From positions 1 to 61,235 of the forward strand of contig CAMYKD010000007.1 in the NCBI GenBank assembly GCA_947258885.1: 61,235 bases of DNA, written 5' to 3'. The position numbers and the translations under genes were made by a program. The stretch comes from an uncultured Kiloniellales bacterium (GTDB lineage Bacteria > Pseudomonadota > Alphaproteobacteria > Kiloniellales > JAKSDN01). Of this stretch, positions 51,882 to 60,988 are shown piece by piece. Numbering within the stretch: position 1 is the stretch's first letter; every line of letters starts with the position of its first letter. The notes below the pieces were generated by a model, which saw only the letters and a program-made list of their open reading frames with translations, was not told where the DNA came from and did not search any database.

Positions 51882-52784
51882 ATGCTCTCCAATTTCCAAC
51901 TCCTCGTCGATTTTCCGGCTACCAATGTCCAGCTTTTGCTGGACGGATTGATGATCGGCGGAATCTTCGCGCTCGCGGCCTACGGGTTGGCGCTGGTCTG
52001 GGGCGTGATGAACGTCAAGAACCTGGCGCAGGGCGAATTCGTCATCATGGGCGGCTACATCGCCTTCTTCATGTACAGGGATCTGGGCATCAATCCGCTC
52101 TGGGCCCTGCCGGTGGCTGGCATTGTCATGTTCGGAATCGGCTGGCTTCTTTATGGACTCGTCATTCGCTGGGTGATCGGCCGTGACCTGTTCACCTCGC
52201 TGCTCGCCACATTTGGCATGGCCATCGTCATTTCGCAGCTCCTCAACCTTGTCTTCGGGCCCGATGTTCAGACAGCCAATTCAGGGCTGGGAACGAGGCT
52301 TTTCCTCGGCAGTGTGACCATTCAGGAAATCCGGGTCGTATCCCTCGTCGTTGCCGGCGGTCTGGCGCTCATGGTGATCCTGTTCATGAAGAACAGCCGC
52401 ATGGGCCAGGCGATCAGGGCCACGGCCCAGGACCCGCGGGCGGCCAAGATCATGGGTATCGATACCGATCGGGTCTATGCCTTCACCTATTCGCTGAACG
52501 CCGCGATCTGTGGCGTGGCTGGCGTGCTCATCTCGATGATCTGGGTCATCCAGCCCTTCTACGGAATCGCGCACTCTATCCGGTCCTTCGTCATCGTCGT
52601 GGCGGCCGGCCTCGGAAACCTGCCGGGCGTCATCGTCTCCGCGCTGGGCCTCGGCGTACTGGAGCAATACGGCGGCTTCGGTTTCGGCACCGAATTCCAG
52701 CAGGCGATCGTCGTCGGCCTGTTGGTCCTGGTGCTCGTCATTCGCCAGATCATGCAGGCACGGCACAGGCAGGTGGTGCAATGA
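51882..52784 (+). CDS. Liv-type ABC transporter permease (LivH-like)
   Basis: The 300-residue permease has about eight helices and LivH-type segments: YGLALVWGVMNVKNLAQGEFVIMGGYIA, RATAQDPRAAKIMGIDTDRVY and VVVAAGLGNLPGVIVSALGLG. It has a TAGGAG ribosome site and overlaps the next permease by 4 bp. It is one half of the membrane channel. Confidence 0.93.
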   Translation: MLSNFQLLVDFPATNVQLLLDGLMIGGIFALAAYGLALVWGVMNVKNLAQGEFVIMGGYIAFFMYRDLGINPLWALPVAGIVMFGIGWLLYGLVIRWVIGRDLFTSLLATFGMAIVISQLLNLVFGPDVQTANSGLGTRLFLGSVTIQEIRVVSLVVAGGLALMVILFMKNSRMGQAIRATAQDPRAAKIMGIDTDRVYAFTYSLNAAICGVAGVLISMIWVIQPFYGIAHSIRSFVIVVAAGLGNLPGVIVSALGLGVLEQYGGFGFGTEFQQAIVVGLLVLVLVIRQIMQARHRQVVQ

Positions 52785-53833
52785 GCATAAGCCGGAGAAC
52801 CCTCGGCCTTTACGGCGGCATCGCCATTGCGTCGCTCGTCGCGCCGTTCGTCTTCGACACTTACATCTCGCAGCTGACGGTCCTGTGGGTGATGGTGCTC
52901 TTCGCCATTACCTGGGACGCCATGGGCGGCCAGATGGGCTACAACTCGCTGGGCAATATCTTCTTTTTCGGCGCCGGCATGTACATCAGTGCCGTGGTGC
53001 AGATCGGCCTGCATTACGATGTCGCCCAATACACGGCCGCCTATGGCGCCATCAAGGTGGACTTCACGCAGGCTCAGTATCACGTCGGCCTGGTGCTGGG
53101 AACAATCGTGGCGGCGCTCGGATCTGTCGTGCTGGCGGTGGTGTTGAGCTGGGTCGTGTTCGGCTTGCGTGGGCCCTATTTCGCGATCGGCACGCTCGGC
53201 ATCGCGCTGGCGGCGGGCGAGCTCGTCGGTGCATGGGAGTACGTCGGCGCGGGCAGCGGGATCTCGCTTCCCGTGTTTCCGGGCGAACCGGAGGTGGGCG
53301 AACGGTTCTTCTATTTCGCTTTCTTCATTGCCGCCGTGCTGTCGTTCTTCTTCTTCCGCTGGCTATACGGCACCCGCTTCGGGCTGGCGATCAACGCGAT
53401 CCGCGACGACGAGGAAAAGGCCGAGGCCATGGGAATCCGCACCATGCGCTACAAAACCATCACCTGGGCTTTATCGGCCTTCTTCCTCGGTATCTGCGGC
53501 TCGCTGTTCGGCAATTACAACATCTTCATCGAGCCGCTGGAGGTCGCCTTCGCCACGGTGGTGTTCGGCATACCCATGGTCGTCATGGCATTGCTGGGCG
53601 GCAAGGGCACGCTCTGGGGCCCGGTTATCGGCGCCATTCTGTACCATGTCATCAAGGAAGCGACCTGGAAGTATTTCCTTGGCTGGCAGTGGGTCGCGCT
53701 CGGTCTTCTGATCGTCGTCACCGTTGTCTTCTTCCAGCAGGGCATCATGGGCTGGGCCCAGGACAAATGGCCCGAGCTGTTCGGCATCGAAGTCGAAGAG
53801 GACTCCGCGGAAGGCGACCGGGAGGCGGCGTGA
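52781..53833 (+). CDS. Liv-type ABC transporter permease (LivM-like)
   Basis: The 350-residue permease has about ten helices. The LivM segments MGYNSLGNIFFFGAGMY, GLRGPYFAIGTLGIALA and AINAIRDDEEKAEAMGI are present, and it ends with an acidic C-terminal tail. It overlaps the upstream permease by 4 bp and the ATPase start by one base. Confidence 0.93.
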   Translation: MSISRRTLGLYGGIAIASLVAPFVFDTYISQLTVLWVMVLFAITWDAMGGQMGYNSLGNIFFFGAGMYISAVVQIGLHYDVAQYTAAYGAIKVDFTQAQYHVGLVLGTIVAALGSVVLAVVLSWVVFGLRGPYFAIGTLGIALAAGELVGAWEYVGAGSGISLPVFPGEPEVGERFFYFAFFIAAVLSFFFFRWLYGTRFGLAINAIRDDEEKAEAMGIRTMRYKTITWALSAFFLGICGSLFGNYNIFIEPLEVAFATVVFGIPMVVMALLGGKGTLWGPVIGAILYHVIKEATWKYFLGWQWVALGLLIVVTVVFFQQGIMGWAQDKWPELFGIEVEEDSAEGDREAA

Positions 53834-54576
53834 TGGCGGCGATGATCGAAGTCCGGAACGTCTCCAAGGCGTTCGGCGGTGTCCAGGCCAACCGGGGTAT
53901 CAGCTTGGACGTGGCCAAGGGAAGGATCACCGGTTTGATCGGACCCAATGGCTCGGGCAAGACGACTCTGTTCAACTCGATCGTCGGCTATCATCCGATC
54001 GATGAAGGCTCCATCAAGTTCGAAGGCCGGGAGATCTCGAAGCTGAGGGTGCCGCAAATTGCGCGGCTCGGCATGCTGCGAACCTTTCAGCAGACCCGTA
54101 TCTACGGCAAAATGAACTGCATCAAGAATATGCTCATTTCCGTGCCGCACCGGAGCATGGGGCTTGTCGAGATCTTCGGCGACCACTCTGCCCAGGAACT
54201 CGAGAAGGCCGAGCACCTGCTCGAGTTCGTCGGTCTTTACGCCAAGCGCAAGCTGCAGGCCGGCGACCTATCGTTCGGGCAGCAGAAGCTGCTCGAGTTT
54301 GCTATGGCCTTGATGAACCAGCCCCAGATCCTGTTGCTCGACGAGCCCACGGCGGGCATCAATCCGACGCTGATCAACGGCCTGATCGACCGTCTGAAAC
54401 GGGCCAACACCGAGTTCGGTATCACGCTCTTCGTTATCGAGCACAACATGCGGGTGATCATGAACTTGGCCGAAAACATCTACTGCCTGGCGCACAGCGA
54501 GCTTCTCGCCGAGGGGTCGCCGGAAACGATCCAGAAGGACAAGCGCGTGATCGACGCCTACCTGGGGGCGCACTGA
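53833..54576 (+). CDS. Liv-type ABC transporter ATP-binding protein (LivG-like)
   Basis: The 247-residue ATPase has Walker A GPNGSGKTT and Walker B ILLLDEPTAGINPT. The signature motif LSFGQQKLLE is the Liv-type variant of LSGGQ. The C-terminal IEHNMRVIMNLAENIYCLAHSELLAEGSP is typical of LivG. The ATG at 53833 overlaps the stop of the preceding gene. It pairs with the LivF-like ATPase. Confidence 0.93.
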   Translation: MAAMIEVRNVSKAFGGVQANRGISLDVAKGRITGLIGPNGSGKTTLFNSIVGYHPIDEGSIKFEGREISKLRVPQIARLGMLRTFQQTRIYGKMNCIKNMLISVPHRSMGLVEIFGDHSAQELEKAEHLLEFVGLYAKRKLQAGDLSFGQQKLLEFAMALMNQPQILLLDEPTAGINPTLINGLIDRLKRANTEFGITLFVIEHNMRVIMNLAENIYCLAHSELLAEGSPETIQKDKRVIDAYLGAH

Positions 54577-55457
54577 TGGCCGGACAGGAAGACACGGCGA
54601 AAGATAAACAGGGCAAATCGGTCGGCTATCACGGCGGCACGGTCGACACGGTCATCTCGGTCGACGAAGTCAACCGTCAAGCGGCCGCCTTGGCCGAGGC
54701 CGGTGTCGCTCCCGAGCGCATCGCCGAACTGGGCGGGCCCGAGCCCTATGTCAAGATCGAGCACCTGCGCGCCGGCTACGGCAAGATGGAGATCCTGCAC
54801 GACTTCAACCTGCAGGTCGGCCGCGGCAAGTCCTTGTGCCTGATCGGACCGAACGGCGCCGGCAAGTCGACGATCCTGCATTCCATATTCGGCTTCACCA
54901 ACATCTACGGCGGCGCGATCTCGATCGACGGGCGGGACGTCACACGGATGTCGTCCAACGACAAGCTTCGGCACGCCGGCGTCGCCTACATCCTGCAAGA
55001 CAAGTCGGTCTTCCCCGGCATGACCGTGGAGGAGAACCTGTGGATGGGCGGCTACCTCATGGAGAAGCCGGCCAAGGCCAAGGCCAAGGCAGAGGAGATC
55101 TTCGCCAAGTACAGTCGTCTGGCCGAAAGGCGCAGGCACCCGGCAAGGGTCCTTTCCGGCGGCGAACGGCGGCTGCTCGAAATCTCCCGCGCCCTAGTGA
55201 TGGAACCGGAGGTGCTGCTGGTCGACGAACCCTCGATCGGTCTGGAGCCGCGCTTCATCGACATGGTCTTCGAGATCCTCGACGACCTCCAGAACGCCGA
55301 GGGCAAGACGATCATCATGGTCGAGCAGAACGCCAAGAAGGGCCTCGAGTTCGCCGACATCGGCTACGTCCTGGTCTCGGGCCAGCTCGCCATGGCCGGT
55401 CCGGGCAAGGAGCTCCTTGAAAACCCGGAGGTCGGGCGGCTGTTCTTGGGCGGCTGA
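54576..55457 (+). CDS. Liv-type ABC transporter ATP-binding protein (LivF-like) with N-terminal extension
   Basis: The 293-residue ATPase has Walker A GPNGAGKST, signature LSGGERRLLE and Walker B VLLVDEPSIGLEP. About 60 extra residues precede the usual first strand (PYVKIEHLRAGYG). They are charged and include EVNRQAAALAEAGVAPERIAELGG, which may form a short helical hairpin. The normal LivF is about 235 residues. The start at 54576 overlaps the preceding stop by one base, so the extension is probably translated. Confidence 0.92.
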   Translation: MAGQEDTAKDKQGKSVGYHGGTVDTVISVDEVNRQAAALAEAGVAPERIAELGGPEPYVKIEHLRAGYGKMEILHDFNLQVGRGKSLCLIGPNGAGKSTILHSIFGFTNIYGGAISIDGRDVTRMSSNDKLRHAGVAYILQDKSVFPGMTVEENLWMGGYLMEKPAKAKAKAEEIFAKYSRLAERRRHPARVLSGGERRLLEISRALVMEPEVLLVDEPSIGLEPRFIDMVFEILDDLQNAEGKTIIMVEQNAKKGLEFADIGYVLVSGQLAMAGPGKELLENPEVGRLFLGG

Positions 55458-55498
55458 ACCGCCACCACCGACCAAGACTGTACGGAAGGGCAAGCGCC

Positions 55499-56095
55499 AT
55501 GCAGATGACCGGCGAATACCGCATCGAGGCACCGCGCGAGACGGTCTGGGCGGCGCTCGTCGACCCGGACGTGCTGAAACGCTGCATCCCGGGCTGCGAG
55601 GAGTTGGAACAGACCTCGGAGAGCGAGTTCACCGCCAAGGTCAAGGCCAAGGTCGGTCCCGTCTCGGCCAAGTTCGCCGGCGCGGTGTCGCTGAGCGACC
55701 TCAACCCGCCCGAGAGCTACAGGATTTCCGGCGAGGGCAAAGGCGGTGCGGCGGGTTTTGCCAAGGGCGGCGCCATGGTGACCCTGGCCGAGGATGGCGG
55801 CGCCACGATGCTGGCCTACGAGATCGACGCCCAGGTCGGCGGCAAGCTGGCCCAGATCGGCCAGCGCCTCATCGCCGGCACGGCCAAGAAGATGGCCGAC
55901 GACTTCTTCGGCCGGCTGGTCGAGGCGATCGGCGCGCCGGCCGAGGCCGTGGCGGCGCCCGCGGAAGCCGCGGCCGAGCTGGCGCCGGCACGGCCGAGCG
56001 ACGCGGATGTCGGCGCCGGCGCCCGGATCGGTGTCTGGGTCGCCGGAACCATCCTCGCCGTCCTGATCCTGCTCGCAATCTTCGGCCTTGGCTGA
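55499..56095 (+). CDS. CoxG-like SRPBCC protein with C-terminal membrane anchor
   Basis: The 198-residue protein has a START/SRPBCC domain (residues 1-145; RIEAPRETVWAALVDPDVLKRCIPGCE and KVKAKVGPVSAKFAG). An Ala/Pro-rich linker follows, then a C-terminal membrane helix (GVWVAGTILAVLILLAIFGLG). CoxG anchors carbon monoxide dehydrogenase to the membrane, and homologues accompany other molybdenum hydroxylases. No coxMSL genes are near, so here it may serve the neighbouring tungsten enzyme or bind an acyl ligand. It lies between the Liv-type operon and aorA. Confidence 0.88.
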   Translation: MQMTGEYRIEAPRETVWAALVDPDVLKRCIPGCEELEQTSESEFTAKVKAKVGPVSAKFAGAVSLSDLNPPESYRISGEGKGGAAGFAKGGAMVTLAEDGGATMLAYEIDAQVGGKLAQIGQRLIAGTAKKMADDFFGRLVEAIGAPAEAVAAPAEAAAELAPARPSDADVGAGARIGVWVAGTILAVLILLAIFGLG

Positions 56096-56173
56096 CCGCG
56101 CATCGTTGTCAGTTGAAATCACCGCCGATTGTCCTATTATCGCTGGAGAAAAATGAACACGGGGAAGAGGCTG

Positions 56174-56653
56174 ATGCAAAAATCACTGCACATTGACCCA
56201 GGAAAATGTACCGGGTGTCTCCAATGCGAGATCGCCTGCTCCCTGGACAACGAGGGCGCTTTCAATCCGGCCAAGTCGCGGATCAAGGTGTTCGATTTCC
56301 ACGTCGAAGGGCGTTTCGTGCCCTACACCTGCACCCAGTGCGCCGAGGCTTGGTGCATGAAGGCCTGTCCGGTGGACGCCATTTCCGTCGATACCCTGAC
56401 AGGCGCGAAGGTTGTCTCCGACGCGCTCTGCGTCGGGTGCAAGGTGTGCACGATCGCCTGTCCCTTCGGGACCATCAACTACAACCAGACCACCGGGAAG
56501 GTCCTCAAATGCGACCTCTGCGGCGGCGATCCGGAATGCGCCAAGGCCTGCCCGACGAGCGCAATCACCTTCATCGACGCGGACTGGACGGGCTTGGAAA
56601 GAATGCGCGACTGGGCGTCGAAGACCGACTCCGGCACGCGCGCCGAAGCGTAG
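56174..56653 (+). CDS. aorA: Electron-transfer subunit with four [4Fe-4S] clusters (AorA-like)
   Basis: The 159-residue protein carries sixteen cysteines in four cluster motifs: CTGCLQCEIAC near the N terminus, CTQCAEAWCMKAC, CVGCKVCTIAC and CDLCGGDPECAKAC. This pattern matches the small subunit of the tungsten aldehyde oxidoreductase of Aromatoleum, which forms a wire between the large and FAD subunits. The ATG at 56174 has a GAAGAGG site and begins at the first conserved strand. It lies 12 bp before aorB. Confidence 0.88.
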   Translation: MQKSLHIDPGKCTGCLQCEIACSLDNEGAFNPAKSRIKVFDFHVEGRFVPYTCTQCAEAWCMKACPVDAISVDTLTGAKVVSDALCVGCKVCTIACPFGTINYNQTTGKVLKCDLCGGDPECAKACPTSAITFIDADWTGLERMRDWASKTDSGTRAEA

Positions 56654-56665
56654 GGAGGAAACGAC

Positions 56666-58513
56666 ATGGCATGGGCGAGGAAGCTGCTGCGGGTCGACCT
56701 GACGAAGGGGACCTGTACATCCGAACGACTCAACATGGACTGGGCGCAGAGGTACCTGGGTCAACGCGGCTTGGCGACGAAGTACCTGACGGAAGAGATC
56801 GACCCGAAGGTCGACCCGCTCTCCCCTGACAACAAGCTGATCATGACGACCGGTCCCTTGACGGGCACCTGCGCCTCGACGGCCGGCCGTTACTCGGTGG
56901 TGACCAAAGGGGCGCTCACCGGGGCGATCGCCTGCTCCAACTCGGGTGGATTCTTCGGCAACGAGATGAAGAACGCCGGCTGGGACATGATCATCTTCGA
57001 GGGCAAGTCGGCCAAGCCGGTCTATCTCTTCGTGCAAGACGACAAGGCCGAGCTCCTCGATGGGGGCGAATTCTGGGGCACCTCGGTCTGGGACACCGAG
57101 GAGAACATCAAGAAAAAGCATCAGGACCCGATGATCCGGGTCGCCTCGATCGGCGTCTCGGGCGAGAAAGGCGTGAAATTCGCCTGCGTGGTCAACGACA
57201 TGCACCGCGCGGCCGGCCGCTCGGGCGTCGGTACCGTGATGGGGTCGAAGAATCTCAAGGCGGTGGCGATCCGCGGCACCCTCGGTGTCAAGGTCAAGGA
57301 CGTCGGCGCGTTCATGACGGCGACCGCGAACGGCAAGGCGGTCCTCGCCGAAAACGCGGTCACCGGCCAGGGCCTGCCGACCTACGGTACCCAGGTGCTG
57401 ATGAACGTGATCAACGAAGTCGGCGCGCTGCCGACACGCAACCACCGCGACGTGCAGTTCGAAGGCGCGGGCGAAATCTCCGCCGAGAAGATGCACGAGA
57501 AGCGGGCCAGCGACGGCAAGTCGAACCTGATCACCAACGGCGCCTGTTTCGGCTGCACGATCGCCTGCGGGCGCATCTCGCAGATCGAGCGCACCCACTA
57601 CACGGTGGTCGACCGCCCACAATACCAGAAGGCCTCGGGCGGCCTGGAGTACGAGGCGGCCTGGGCACTGGGGGCGGCCACGGGCGTGGACGACATCGAC
57701 GCGCTGACCTTCGCGAACTTCATCTGCAACGAGCAGGGCTACGATCCGATCTCCTTCGGCGCGACCGTCGGGGCGGCCATGGAGCTGTTCGAGACGGGCG
57801 CCATCACCACCAAGGAGACCGGCGGTATCGAGCTCAAGTTCGGCAACACCAAGGCGCTCACCGAGCTGGCCGAGCAGACCGGGCTCGGCGAGGGCTTCGG
57901 GGCCGAAATCGGCCTCGGTTCCAAGCGGTTGTGCGAGAAGTACGGCCATCCGGAGATGTCGATGTCGGTCAAGGGCCAGGAGTTCCCGGCCTACGATTCA
58001 CGCGGCATCCAGGGCATGGGACTGACCTATGCGACCTCCAACCGCGGCGCCTGCCACCTGCGCAGCTACACCGTCGCTTCGGAGATCCTGGGCATTCCGG
58101 AGAAGACGGACCCCTTGGCTACGGAAGGCAAGGCGGGCCTGGTGAAGGCCTTCCAGGACGCAACGGCGGCCTTCGACTCCGCGGGCCTGTGCATCTTCAC
58201 GTCCTTTGCCTGGACCCTGGAGGACGTCGCGCCCCAGCTCGATTCGGCCTGCGAGGGCGACTGGTCGGTCGAGAAGTTGCTCGAGGTGGGCGAGCGGATC
58301 TGGAACCTGGAGCGCCAGTTCAACCTGGCCGCCGGCTTCACGGGCAAGGACGACAACCTGCCCGCGCGTCTCCTGAAGGACGCGGCGAAGACCGGACCCG
58401 CCGAGGGCAAGGTCAATGGACTGGGCGAGATGCTGCCGGAATACTACCAGCTTCGCGGCTGGACGGCGGAGGGCGTGCCCAGCAACCAGACCGTGGAGCG
58501 CTTGGGGCTCTAG
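56666..58513 (+). CDS. aorB: Tungsten-dependent aldehyde:ferredoxin oxidoreductase, large subunit (AorB-like)
   Basis: The 615-residue enzyme belongs to the AOR family. It contains the [4Fe-4S] ligands Cys294, Cys297, Cys301 (CFGCTIAC) and Cys509 (GLCIF), in nearly the same spacing as in Pyrococcus AOR. The N-terminal RVDLTKGT and GTVMGSKNLKAVAIRG segments are family hallmarks of the bis-tungstopterin site. It oxidises aldehydes to acids, and some members also reduce acids. The ATG at 56666 has a GGAGG site. With the ferredoxin and FAD subunits it forms an aorABC unit. Confidence 0.95.
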   Translation: MAWARKLLRVDLTKGTCTSERLNMDWAQRYLGQRGLATKYLTEEIDPKVDPLSPDNKLIMTTGPLTGTCASTAGRYSVVTKGALTGAIACSNSGGFFGNEMKNAGWDMIIFEGKSAKPVYLFVQDDKAELLDGGEFWGTSVWDTEENIKKKHQDPMIRVASIGVSGEKGVKFACVVNDMHRAAGRSGVGTVMGSKNLKAVAIRGTLGVKVKDVGAFMTATANGKAVLAENAVTGQGLPTYGTQVLMNVINEVGALPTRNHRDVQFEGAGEISAEKMHEKRASDGKSNLITNGACFGCTIACGRISQIERTHYTVVDRPQYQKASGGLEYEAAWALGAATGVDDIDALTFANFICNEQGYDPISFGATVGAAMELFETGAITTKETGGIELKFGNTKALTELAEQTGLGEGFGAEIGLGSKRLCEKYGHPEMSMSVKGQEFPAYDSRGIQGMGLTYATSNRGACHLRSYTVASEILGIPEKTDPLATEGKAGLVKAFQDATAAFDSAGLCIFTSFAWTLEDVAPQLDSACEGDWSVEKLLEVGERIWNLERQFNLAAGFTGKDDNLPARLLKDAAKTGPAEGKVNGLGEMLPEYYQLRGWTAEGVPSNQTVERLGL

Positions 58514-58536
58514 CCACGCTTGAGCGGGATCGAGGC

Positions 58537-58568
58537 GGACCCGATCGTCCCTGCGGGCGATCGGGTCC
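58537..58568 (+). promoter_or_regulatory. Long hairpin between aorB and aorC
   Basis: An 11-bp perfect stem (58537-58547 with 58558-58568) encloses a loop that itself can pair CCC with GGG. It lies 24 bp after the aorB stop with no T-run. It may set the AorB:AorC ratio or protect the upstream message. Confidence 0.6.
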
Positions 58569-58699
58569 CGTCTCATTCCCGAAACGGTTGGTCGAAACCA
58601 TGGACAGCGCAGTCGCCTAGCCGTCATCCCAAGATCGGCGTCTTGCGGTCTTCTGTCCGGGTCCCGGAATCGGGAAAGCAATTCGGGGAGCGGAAACAC

Positions 58700-59944
58700 A
58701 TGGCCCGTTACGTCATAGTCGGTGCCGGCCCGGCCGGTGTAATCGCGGCGGAAACGCTGCGCCAGCAGGACGCGGACGGAGAGATCGTCCTCCTTGGAGA
58801 AGAACCCGAGCCGCCCTATTCGCGGATGGCCATTCCCTACTACCTGACCGGGGGCATTGAGGAATCGGGAACCTATCTGCGCAAGGCCCGGGACCATTAC
58901 GCCAAGCTGGAGATTGAGATTCGCCAGGTTGCGGTCAGCAAGGTCGACACCGGCGCCGACAAACTGGTTCTGGCCGACGGCTCGGCCCTGCCCTACGACC
59001 AGCTTCTGCTGGCAACGGGTGCCAGCCCCGTGCAGCCGCCGGTGCCCGGACTGGACCTCCCGGGTGTGCATCACTGCTGGACGCTCGAGGACGCCCGCCA
59101 AATCGCGGACCTCGCGGACCGGGGCGCCAGCGTGGTCCTGATGGGGGCCGGTTTCATCGGCTGCATCATCCTGGAAAGCCTCCTGGCACGGGACGTAAAG
59201 CTGACCGTCGTCGAAATGGAGGACCGCATGCTGCCGCGCATGATGGACCAGACCGGCGGCGCCATGATCAAGCGGTGGTGCGAAAGCAAGGGGACGAGCG
59301 TCCTGACCTCGACCAAGGTCACCGAGATCAAGGCGGCGAACGGCGGCGGCCTGCAGGTGGCCCTGGACAGCGGCGAGCAGGTGCCCGCGGCCTTGGTGGT
59401 CGTGGCGACCGGCGTGAAATCCAACGCCGAGCTGGTCCAGGACGGTGACGTCGAGGTCGATCAGGGCATCGTCGTCGACAATCATTTGCGGACCAGCGTG
59501 CCCAACGTCTACGCGGCCGGCGACGTCGCGCAGGCGCCGGACCACTCGACCGGGGGCTGGTCGGTGCTGGCGATCCAGCCGACGGCGGCCGACCACGGGC
59601 GCGTCGCCGCCCTGAATATGGCCGGGGTGGAGACGACCTATAAGGGGAACCTGGCGATGAACGTGCTCGACACAGCCGGGCTGGTCTCCGTGTCCTTCGG
59701 CCGCTGGGACGGCGGAGACGGCTGCGAGACGGCCGAGTCCGTGGACGCGGAGAACTTCCGCTACATGCGCCTCGTATTCGAGGAGGACCGTGTCGTCGGC
59801 GCCCTCAGCCTCGGCCACACCGACCATGTCGGGGTCCTGCGCGGCCTGATCCAGGGCGACGTTCACCTGGGCGACTGGAAGGAGCGCCTCCAGGCGGACC
59901 CCTGCCGGATCATGGAAGCCTATCTCGGGTCCACGCTGAGCTGA
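58700..59944 (+). CDS. aorC: FAD/NAD-dependent oxidoreductase, AorC-like subunit
   Basis: The 414-residue flavoprotein has an N-terminal FAD-binding GAGPAGVIAAETL (residues 8-20), a second dinucleotide fold VVLMGAGFIGCIILESL near residue 150, and the FAD-closing VYAAGDVAQAP near 271. No redox-active Cys pair is seen. In Aromatoleum AOR the equivalent subunit lets the enzyme use NAD as electron acceptor. The ATG at 58700 has a GGGGAG site. It follows aorB after 186 bp and is convergent with the MoaD-like genes. Confidence 0.9.
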   Translation: MARYVIVGAGPAGVIAAETLRQQDADGEIVLLGEEPEPPYSRMAIPYYLTGGIEESGTYLRKARDHYAKLEIEIRQVAVSKVDTGADKLVLADGSALPYDQLLLATGASPVQPPVPGLDLPGVHHCWTLEDARQIADLADRGASVVLMGAGFIGCIILESLLARDVKLTVVEMEDRMLPRMMDQTGGAMIKRWCESKGTSVLTSTKVTEIKAANGGGLQVALDSGEQVPAALVVVATGVKSNAELVQDGDVEVDQGIVVDNHLRTSVPNVYAAGDVAQAPDHSTGGWSVLAIQPTAADHGRVAALNMAGVETTYKGNLAMNVLDTAGLVSVSFGRWDGGDGCETAESVDAENFRYMRLVFEEDRVVGALSLGHTDHVGVLRGLIQGDVHLGDWKERLQADPCRIMEAYLGSTLS

Positions 59945-59981: not shown

Positions 59982-60305
59982 TCAGACGACTGGCGCCCCG
60001 TATCCGTAGCTGTACGGCACCGCGCCGGAAAAGGCGACGACGTCCCCGTCCTCGATCAGGTGGTAGTCCTTGATATCGCCGCCGACCAGGCCTGGCGTGA
60101 TGTCGCGCCCGTTCACCAGGACCAGGAACAGCTCGTCGCGCGGGATCCGCAGCCGCTCGGCCAGTTCGCCGACCGTCGTGCCGGCCGGCAGCGCCAGTTG
60201 GCGCCGCGGCCCCTCGGCGTCGGCGTATTTCACTATGCTGTTGAAAAGCCGGACTTCGACCTTGACGACTACGTCCTGGGAGTTGTGTCCGATCTGAATA
60301 TTCAC
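59982..60305 (-). CDS. MoaD/ThiS-like beta-grasp protein without terminal Gly-Gly
   Basis: The product, about 107 residues from a GTG at 60305 with a GAGG site, has the MoaD/ThiS beta-grasp pattern (VKVEVRLFNSIVKYA, LPAGTTVGELAERLRIP, FLVLVNGRDI, LIEDGDVVAFSGAVP). The C terminus ends YGAPVV instead of Gly-Gly, so it cannot be activated in the usual way unless processed. It may instead be a scaffold or inhibitor. An ATG at 60383 would add 26 residues without family similarity. It is the last gene of a three-gene reverse-strand set facing aorC. Confidence 0.8.
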   Translation of the reverse strand: MNIQIGHNSQDVVVKVEVRLFNSIVKYADAEGPRRQLALPAGTTVGELAERLRIPRDELFLVLVNGRDITPGLVGGDIKDYHLIEDGDVVAFSGAVPYSYGYGAPVV

Positions 60306-60433: not shown

Positions 60434-60718
60434 CTAGCCGCCGGCGCGCTGGAAAACCCGGTCGAAGCGCTGCAGGAAATCGGCCTCTTCCTCTGTGCTG
60501 TAGCCGCGAAACGCGATGGTCACCTGGGCGCGCGGCAGGGACAGCAGGCCGCTCAGCCGGCGCGGCGGCAGGGGCTCGATCGAGATCGAAATTCCCCTCT
60601 CGGCCGACCCGGCCTCGACGCCGTGGTTCTCGACTCGATACTCGCGGCCCTCCATCGCCAGAGCTGCACCCCGGAAAAACTCGTCGGGGGTCAGAGCCAT
60701 GTCCTTGACCGTAGGCAT
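60434..60718 (-). CDS. Small protein (94 aa) ending in Gly-Gly, unknown function
   Basis: The product lies 12 bp after the MoaD-like gene and is co-directional with both beta-grasp genes. Its middle is strand-rich (YRVENHGVEAG, ISISIEPLPPRRL, AQVTIAFRGYS), followed by a helix (EEADFLQRFDRVFQRAGG) that ends in Gly-Gly. I do not recognise a named family, but I recall similar small proteins near AOR genes. The terminal Gly-Gly is shared with the upstream MoaD and may be functional or chance. Confidence 0.75.
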   Translation of the reverse strand: MPTVKDMALTPDEFFRGAALAMEGREYRVENHGVEAGSAERGISISIEPLPPRRLSGLLSLPRAQVTIAFRGYSTEEEADFLQRFDRVFQRAGG

Positions 60719-60730
60719 CGGGCCGTCTTG

Positions 60731-60988
60731 TCAGCCCCCGGCTACCGGCGGCCAGGCGGCAACGGTATCGCCGTCCGCGACGGTACAATCCGCTCGGTGG
60801 CTCGGCGCGATGAAGAGGCCGTTCAACAACACGAGATGGCATTGCTCCATCGGGACCTTGAACTGGGCGAGGATCGCCTCGACCGTGGCCTCGTCGGACG
60901 GCAAAAGCACCTTCACCGCGTTGGCCTTCGCCCCGGCGGGCAGATAATCGGACAAGGACGCATAGAGCTTAACGGTCGCGCTCGCCAT
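60731..60988 (-). CDS. MoaD-family sulfur-carrier protein with C-terminal Gly-Gly
   Basis: The 85-residue protein has the MoaD beta-grasp pattern (TVKLYASLSDYLP, VEAILAQFKVP, LVLLNGLFIAP, VADGDTVAAWPPVAGG) and the terminal Gly-Gly needed for adenylation and thiocarboxylation. MoaD donates sulfur to the dithiolene of molybdopterin, which also makes the tungsten cofactor of AOR. Adjacent position to aorABC fits a dedicated cofactor role, as for aorD of Aromatoleum. It is the first gene of the reverse-strand set. Confidence 0.88.
   Translation of the reverse strand: MASATVKLYASLSDYLPAGAKANAVKVLLPSDEATVEAILAQFKVPMEQCHLVLLNGLFIAPSHRADCTVADGDTVAAWPPVAGG

Follow-up and report, generated by a model that had tools for sequence, protein, structure and literature searches.

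AorE, a small protein of tungsten aldehyde oxidoreductase loci with an invariant C-terminal Gly-Gly and a predicted fold other than beta-grasp

The 94-residue product encoded beside the tungsten aldehyde oxidoreductase (AOR) genes of the window, the whole 61,235-nucleotide stretch of DNA that was analysed, belongs to the AorE family, since one profile finds both this protein and a gene in the aorE position of a genome with the AorB of Aromatoleum aromaticum. The family ends in an invariant Gly-Gly, is predicted to have a fold other than beta-grasp and very likely has a role in AOR maturation. Slightly favoured is the fuller reading that AorE is a maturation protein of AorABC, paired with the MoaD-type protein AorD, with a tail that is activated by an E1 enzyme and, as a thiocarboxylate, supplies sulfur for tungstopterin. 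For the thiocarboxylate chemistry on the tail, taken by itself, the odds are about even.

The genes lie together with aorABC inside one 5-kb cluster with opposed strands (Table 1). The plus-strand genes, of which aorA encodes a four-cluster ferredoxin, converge with the minus-strand genes, where a MoaD gene lies upstream of the AorE gene and a third, MoaD-like gene downstream. What the earlier note had stated of the sequences holds throughout. A 94-residue product ending in RAGG stands between a MoaD ending in VAGG and a MoaD-like protein ending in APVV. Its suggestion that tail and fold are divided between neighbours does not fit, as the first MoaD has both and the 94-residue protein has its own fold and tail. 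The AorD-like neighbour is a member of the ThiS/MoaD family (Pfam, 32.1 bits with a cut-off of 22.5). The third protein had been described as a clear beta-grasp protein that had lost its tail; Gly-Gly is indeed absent from its end (...YGYGAPVV), and the fold was not confirmed, with a ThiS score of 22.3 bits, slightly below the same Pfam cut-off, and a poor AlphaFold model (pLDDT 47). Genes for a branched-chain amino-acid-type ABC transporter and a CoxG-family gene (51882-56095, plus strand) lead straight into aorA, and CoxG-like genes are found near AOR in two other loci too.

Table 1. Features of the AOR cluster in the window
Feature	Position	Strand	Basis or remark
AorA, 4Fe-4S ferredoxin-type small subunit	56129..56653	+	ORF; true start possibly internal
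AorB, tungsten aldehyde oxidoreductase catalytic subunit	56666..58513	+	closest solved relative 8c0z (A. aromaticum)
AorC, FAD/NAD(P) subunit	58520..59944	+	ORF; ATG at 58700 is the likely start
Third MoaD-like protein, 107 aa, GTG start, tail VPYSYGYGAPVV, without Gly-Gly	59982..60305	-	sequence
AorE-like protein, 94 aa, predicted non-beta-grasp domain, C-terminal RAGG	60434..60718	-	end is ...FQRAGG
Tail codons R-A-G-G (residues 91-94)	60437..60448	-	alignment and tail-less profile
AorD-like MoaD/ThiS beta-grasp protein, 85 aa, C-terminal PPVAGG	60731..60988	-	Pfam

Homologues of AorE were found in two genomes of the same genus (86-87% identity) and in one of the same family (54%). Profile searches added about a dozen across the class and further ones across the phylum, each list including a few weak, probably false matches at its bottom. 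Homologues were found in 44 of 150 genomes of a family that belongs to another class of the phylum, again with a few weak and probably false matches low in the list, and in 47 of 101 genomes of a second family. The profiles used in these whole-genome searches included the tail. A scan of genome contigs gave the two same-genus loci only, and two members of the family found no match in a plasmid collection. No family was assigned to the window protein in Pfam or NCBIfam, and none of 29 members had a convincing Pfam match; MarR-like matches in two loci were dismissed as chance. Long spurious frames are common in very G+C-rich DNA and many are listed for the window, but the idea of a chance frame, or of a gene without constraint, is refuted by conservation of the protein, with its invariant C-terminus, in two classes, and its probability is negligible. 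The frame is a real gene.

All 81 distinct homologues in the fetched DNA end in Gly-Gly (76 in RGGG, four in RAGG and one in KGGG), which is therefore not a matter of chance, and none runs on beyond it. The bodies of these proteins are mostly 21-54% identical to the window protein. When 29 members, with identities to the window protein down to 21%, were aligned, the final two glycines were the only invariant columns, and this alignment bears out the invariance that the earlier note had proposed to check. Column entropy was 0.0-0.2 bits in the final four positions, whereas the remaining columns averaged 2.1 bits. A profile without the tail recovered all 81 homologues at E < 1e-3 and found no tailless relatives, both within the fetched DNA. 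One genome (G315) has a second, truncated copy distant from its AOR locus, a 68-residue frame consisting of the C-terminal half and RGGG (L044:9312-9518). In another (G004), the genes for AorE and the third MoaD-like protein lie on either side of one for a 162-residue protein without a Pfam family (L011:12687-13175, the same as L004:1815-2303).

The gene order Fer-AOR-FAD-MoaD-AorE was found in nearly all loci read, and the start codon of AorE often overlaps the stop codon of MoaD. In five loci the AorE gene has changed strand or moved to the cluster's other flank and yet remains nearby. Among 101 genomes of one family, 46 contained both AOR and AorE, 52 neither, one AorE only and two AOR only; the last two are apparently without AorE, and one of their AOR genes is near a contig end. 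The P value calculated for this co-occurrence takes no account of relatedness among the genomes and is not meant literally. Genes resembling the tungstate transporter TupBCA are directly downstream of AorE in two loci (best matches to TupA 2e-59 and 4e-72 and to TupB 7e-48, all under NCBI's strict cut-offs), and moaA is the convergent neighbour of AorE in three loci of one family. No E1 gene adjoining AorE was found among the neighbours scanned. The earlier note had listed findings that would refute its proposal: a fold unrelated to beta-grasp was found in part, and variable C-termini and missing linkage to AOR clearly were not. One genome has a full aorABCD cluster and AorE was not found in it (G943, locus L155), which makes it a natural test for the dispensability of AorE. 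One locus encodes an AorD with three residues after its Gly-Gly (AGGNSR; L039:9505-9765, minus strand), overlapping the start of aorE, and a carrier role of this AorD would need trimming.

The protein had been noted as unrecognised, and this needs correction, as the gene is known from A. aromaticum under the name aorE and described there only as MoaD-like. In one genome of the collection AorB and the 8c0z chain of A. aromaticum match at 100% identity over 615 residues, and an AorE homologue ending in DRAMQRGGG (profile E 1.3e-16) is found directly after aorC and aorD. The assignment of this genome to A. aromaticum rests on that identity. AorE of A. aromaticum EbN1 (WP_041646407, PMC9295118) and AorE of the window are of the same family and have the same partner enzyme, AorABC. 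They differ in the tail, which is RGGG in A. aromaticum and RAGG in the window, and in gene order: in A. aromaticum the gene is directly after aorD, whereas in the window aorABC is on one strand, MoaD and AorE are encoded on the other, and an extra MoaD-like gene follows.

The AorE family has already been named in print and assigned a role in broad terms. MoaD genes linked to AOR have long been known (PMC1779556), and aorD and aorE of the aorABCDE genes of A. aromaticum EbN1 have been called 'proteins resembling' MoaD and putative maturation factors (PMC6365974). In a further report (PMC9295118), AOR activity in A. evansii was 4.5 U/mg with aorABC, 16 with aorABCDE and 85 with aorABCDE and tungstate, the effect of aorD and aorE being given there for the pair together. 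The W content of recombinant AOR made without extra tungstate is given in the same report as 0.39 with aorDE and 1.06 without. Because the W content is lower with aorDE, the gain in activity is not simply one of metal loading. The earlier suggestion of a second carrier or partner protein for the tungsten enzyme fits, and for the aorDE pair that report offers experimental support.

The AlphaFold model of AorE, based on 17 homologues (pLDDT 88.7), has a strand, a helix, four strands and a long C-terminal helix, with the final three residues disordered. The order in a beta-grasp fold is strand-strand-helix-strand-strand. The structure prediction for which the earlier note had asked thus gave beta-alpha-beta4-alpha and not beta-grasp; the AorE profile compared with the AOR-linked MoaD family gave an hhalign probability of 1.9%, and on these two results a beta-grasp reading was rejected. 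An alternative implied by the A. aromaticum papers, in which AorE is a divergent MoaD with a beta-grasp fold, would agree with the published description (PMC6365974) and with the Gly-Gly in common. It is very improbable in view of the modelled order of secondary structure, the hhalign value, the lack of any ThiS or MoaD match in Pfam or NCBIfam, and a link to MoaD that consists solely of the second, non-MoaD domain of the Thermus thermophilus protein 1v8c. The description of AorE as MoaD-like appears to be inaccurate for the predicted fold. AorE resembles the MoaD, ThiS, TtuB and SAMP carriers in being small, in having an exposed C-terminal Gly-Gly as its most conserved element and in its context of cofactor biosynthesis, and differs from them in not being beta-grasp by prediction.

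In Foldseek the first match by E-value (0.0063) was the second domain, residues 87-165, of 1v8c, a 'MoaD related protein'. The model and this C-terminal domain superimposed with an rmsd of 2.1 over 77 residues and a Z score of 8.4. KA1, START and other beta-alpha-beta4-alpha domains gave Z scores as high or higher; as the fold class is this common, the fold alone is not proof of kinship. KA1, START/PYR and phosphoglucomutase C-terminal domains, many of them in the Foldseek and VIA lists, were set aside as sharing the fold arrangement and not as relatives. In sequence, 1v8c was the only PDB entry matched by the 29-member profile at E values up to 10 (residues 124-168), with a match that is weak in itself (E 1.5 over the whole library). 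Its score was reached by six of about 19,400 composition-matched shuffles with the tail excluded and by one of about 19,900 with the tail included. Weak PDB matches to MotB linker domains were gone with the larger profile. The 1v8c C-terminal domain, which we take to be Pfam DUF1952 (PF09189), was matched by one of the 29 members at E 0.12 only, under the Pfam cut-off, and the PF09189 model had no match at the window locus.

The MoaD domain of 1v8c ends in PPVAGG at residues 82-87, the second domain follows at once, and RGGG at 165-168 is the C-terminus. This domain thus resembles AorE in the predicted fold over the whole domain, in a weak but specific sequence match, in RGGG and in a MoaD directly upstream; in Thermus it shares a chain with MoaD, whereas AorE has a gene to itself in the window. 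Since 1v8c consists of MoaD and then the second domain, AorD- and AorE-type domains are fused in a single Thermus chain, and, going by that sequence, the glycines of its MoaD are internal and those of the AorE-type domain free. Such a fusion could be cut after the internal PPVAGG like a ubiquitin precursor to yield a pair of proteins with GG tails; aorD and aorE as separate genes would then be the pre-cut version, and one or both products could also be conjugated to proteins. The canonical PPVAGG with the second domain immediately behind it is in line with this, as are ubiquitin-like conjugation and a JAMM peptidase in T. thermophilus (PMC3980101) and the ubiquitin-like proteins of Thermococcus kodakarensis, one encoded beside an AOR gene, that are sulfur carriers as well as modifiers (PMC11323500). 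The recombinant 1v8c chain that was crystallised covers both domains uncut, however, and such processing is decidedly unlikely.

In the mechanism proposed here, AorE would be a dedicated maturation protein of the three-subunit AorABC, paired with the AOR-specific MoaD, AorD, and its C-terminal helix would run into the exposed, invariant R-G/A-G-G tail. As nothing else in AorE is strictly conserved, the tail is presumably the functional element, which speaks against an enzyme; the conserved working part would be this tail and not a catalytic site. The terminal glycine would be adenylated by the MoeB/ThiF-type E1 of the cell, like that of MoaD, and the sulfur of the thiocarboxylate would be used to make or complete the tungstopterin cofactor of AorB. 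AorD would be the partner carrier or docking module, and the Thermus fusion and the coupled genes suggest that AorD and AorE act as a complex. By analogy with MoaD, a Gly-Gly that belongs to a cofactor pathway and is obligately C-terminal would most simply serve for E1 activation and sulfur transport. We infer both for AorE, with the genome's single MoeB/ThiF-type E1 probably as the activating enzyme. There is a precedent for one E1 serving several carriers, since a single E1 of T. thermophilus thiocarboxylates TtuB, MoaD and ThiS (PMC3980101), and several ubiquitin-like proteins contribute to the tungsten cofactor in T. kodakarensis (PMC11323500). The narrower proposal, that AorE is an E1-activated protein without a beta-grasp fold that carries a thiocarboxylate (or is conjugated) and acts in series with MoaD to complete the tungsten cofactor, is tentative and falls somewhat short of an even chance.

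The absence of an E1 gene among the scanned neighbours, the lower W content with aorDE and the two AOR genomes apparently without AorE count against a carrier. AorD has a Gly-Gly of its own, so that a second carrier is not obviously needed. E1 enzymes recognise the beta-grasp fold besides the tail, and we know of no carrier of Gly-Gly adenylation or thiocarboxylate chemistry that is not beta-grasp, both of which also count against AorE as a carrier. AorE could instead be a scaffold or specificity subunit of AorD that carries nothing, the RGGG tail being a recognition element, for example in the E1 or in the molybdopterin-synthase pocket, that is never activated. The predicted fold and the missing E1 gene are in keeping with such a role, and the MoaD fusion in Thermus and the tight aorD-aorE gene pair argue for a complex. 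Docking alone, however, needs no exactly C-terminal glycines, yet no homologue extends past them, and since the MoaD Gly-Gly is internal in Thermus, the AorE-type tail is the sole free one there unless the fusion is cut. This alternative is unlikely, though not to be neglected.

If activation of the tail is true, ubiquitin-type chemistry would have in AorE a new scaffold and a second structural solution beside beta-grasp; if the tail is never activated, AorE would be an AOR-specific accessory domain. To our knowledge, the Gly-Gly carriers of the ubiquitin, MoaD and ThiS class all share the beta-grasp fold. An RGGG just as invariant on a different fold, and nearly always with its own MoaD alongside, would mean that the tail chemistry can move to another scaffold. 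AorE would also offer a handle on what sets the tungsten cofactor of AOR apart from the ordinary molybdenum cofactor. It links the second domain of the Thermus MoaD structure, of which little has been described, with the unexplained boost of activity by aorDE, and the model would correct the simple label 'MoaD-like' that AorE has in print. No description of the invariant tail, the predicted non-beta-grasp fold or the identity with the Thermus second domain was found in the searchable literature, where absence is not proof.

The genome of the window has two more AOR-family genes, on contigs C31 and C108. The AOR on C31 is accompanied by Fer, FAD and MoaD genes of its own, the MoaD ending in PPLKGG, and no AorE was detected at this locus. 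The genome also has a separate canonical MoaD after a moeA-like gene and one ThiF/MoeB-type E1. The third MoaD-like protein is a member of a small family with the near-invariant tail VPYS[YW]GYG[AS]P[VI]V in place of Gly-Gly. Strong matches to this family across the class are almost all in AorE-bearing genomes and mostly unlinked to AorE, and in one genome the gene adjoins a second AOR paralogue and transporter-like genes.
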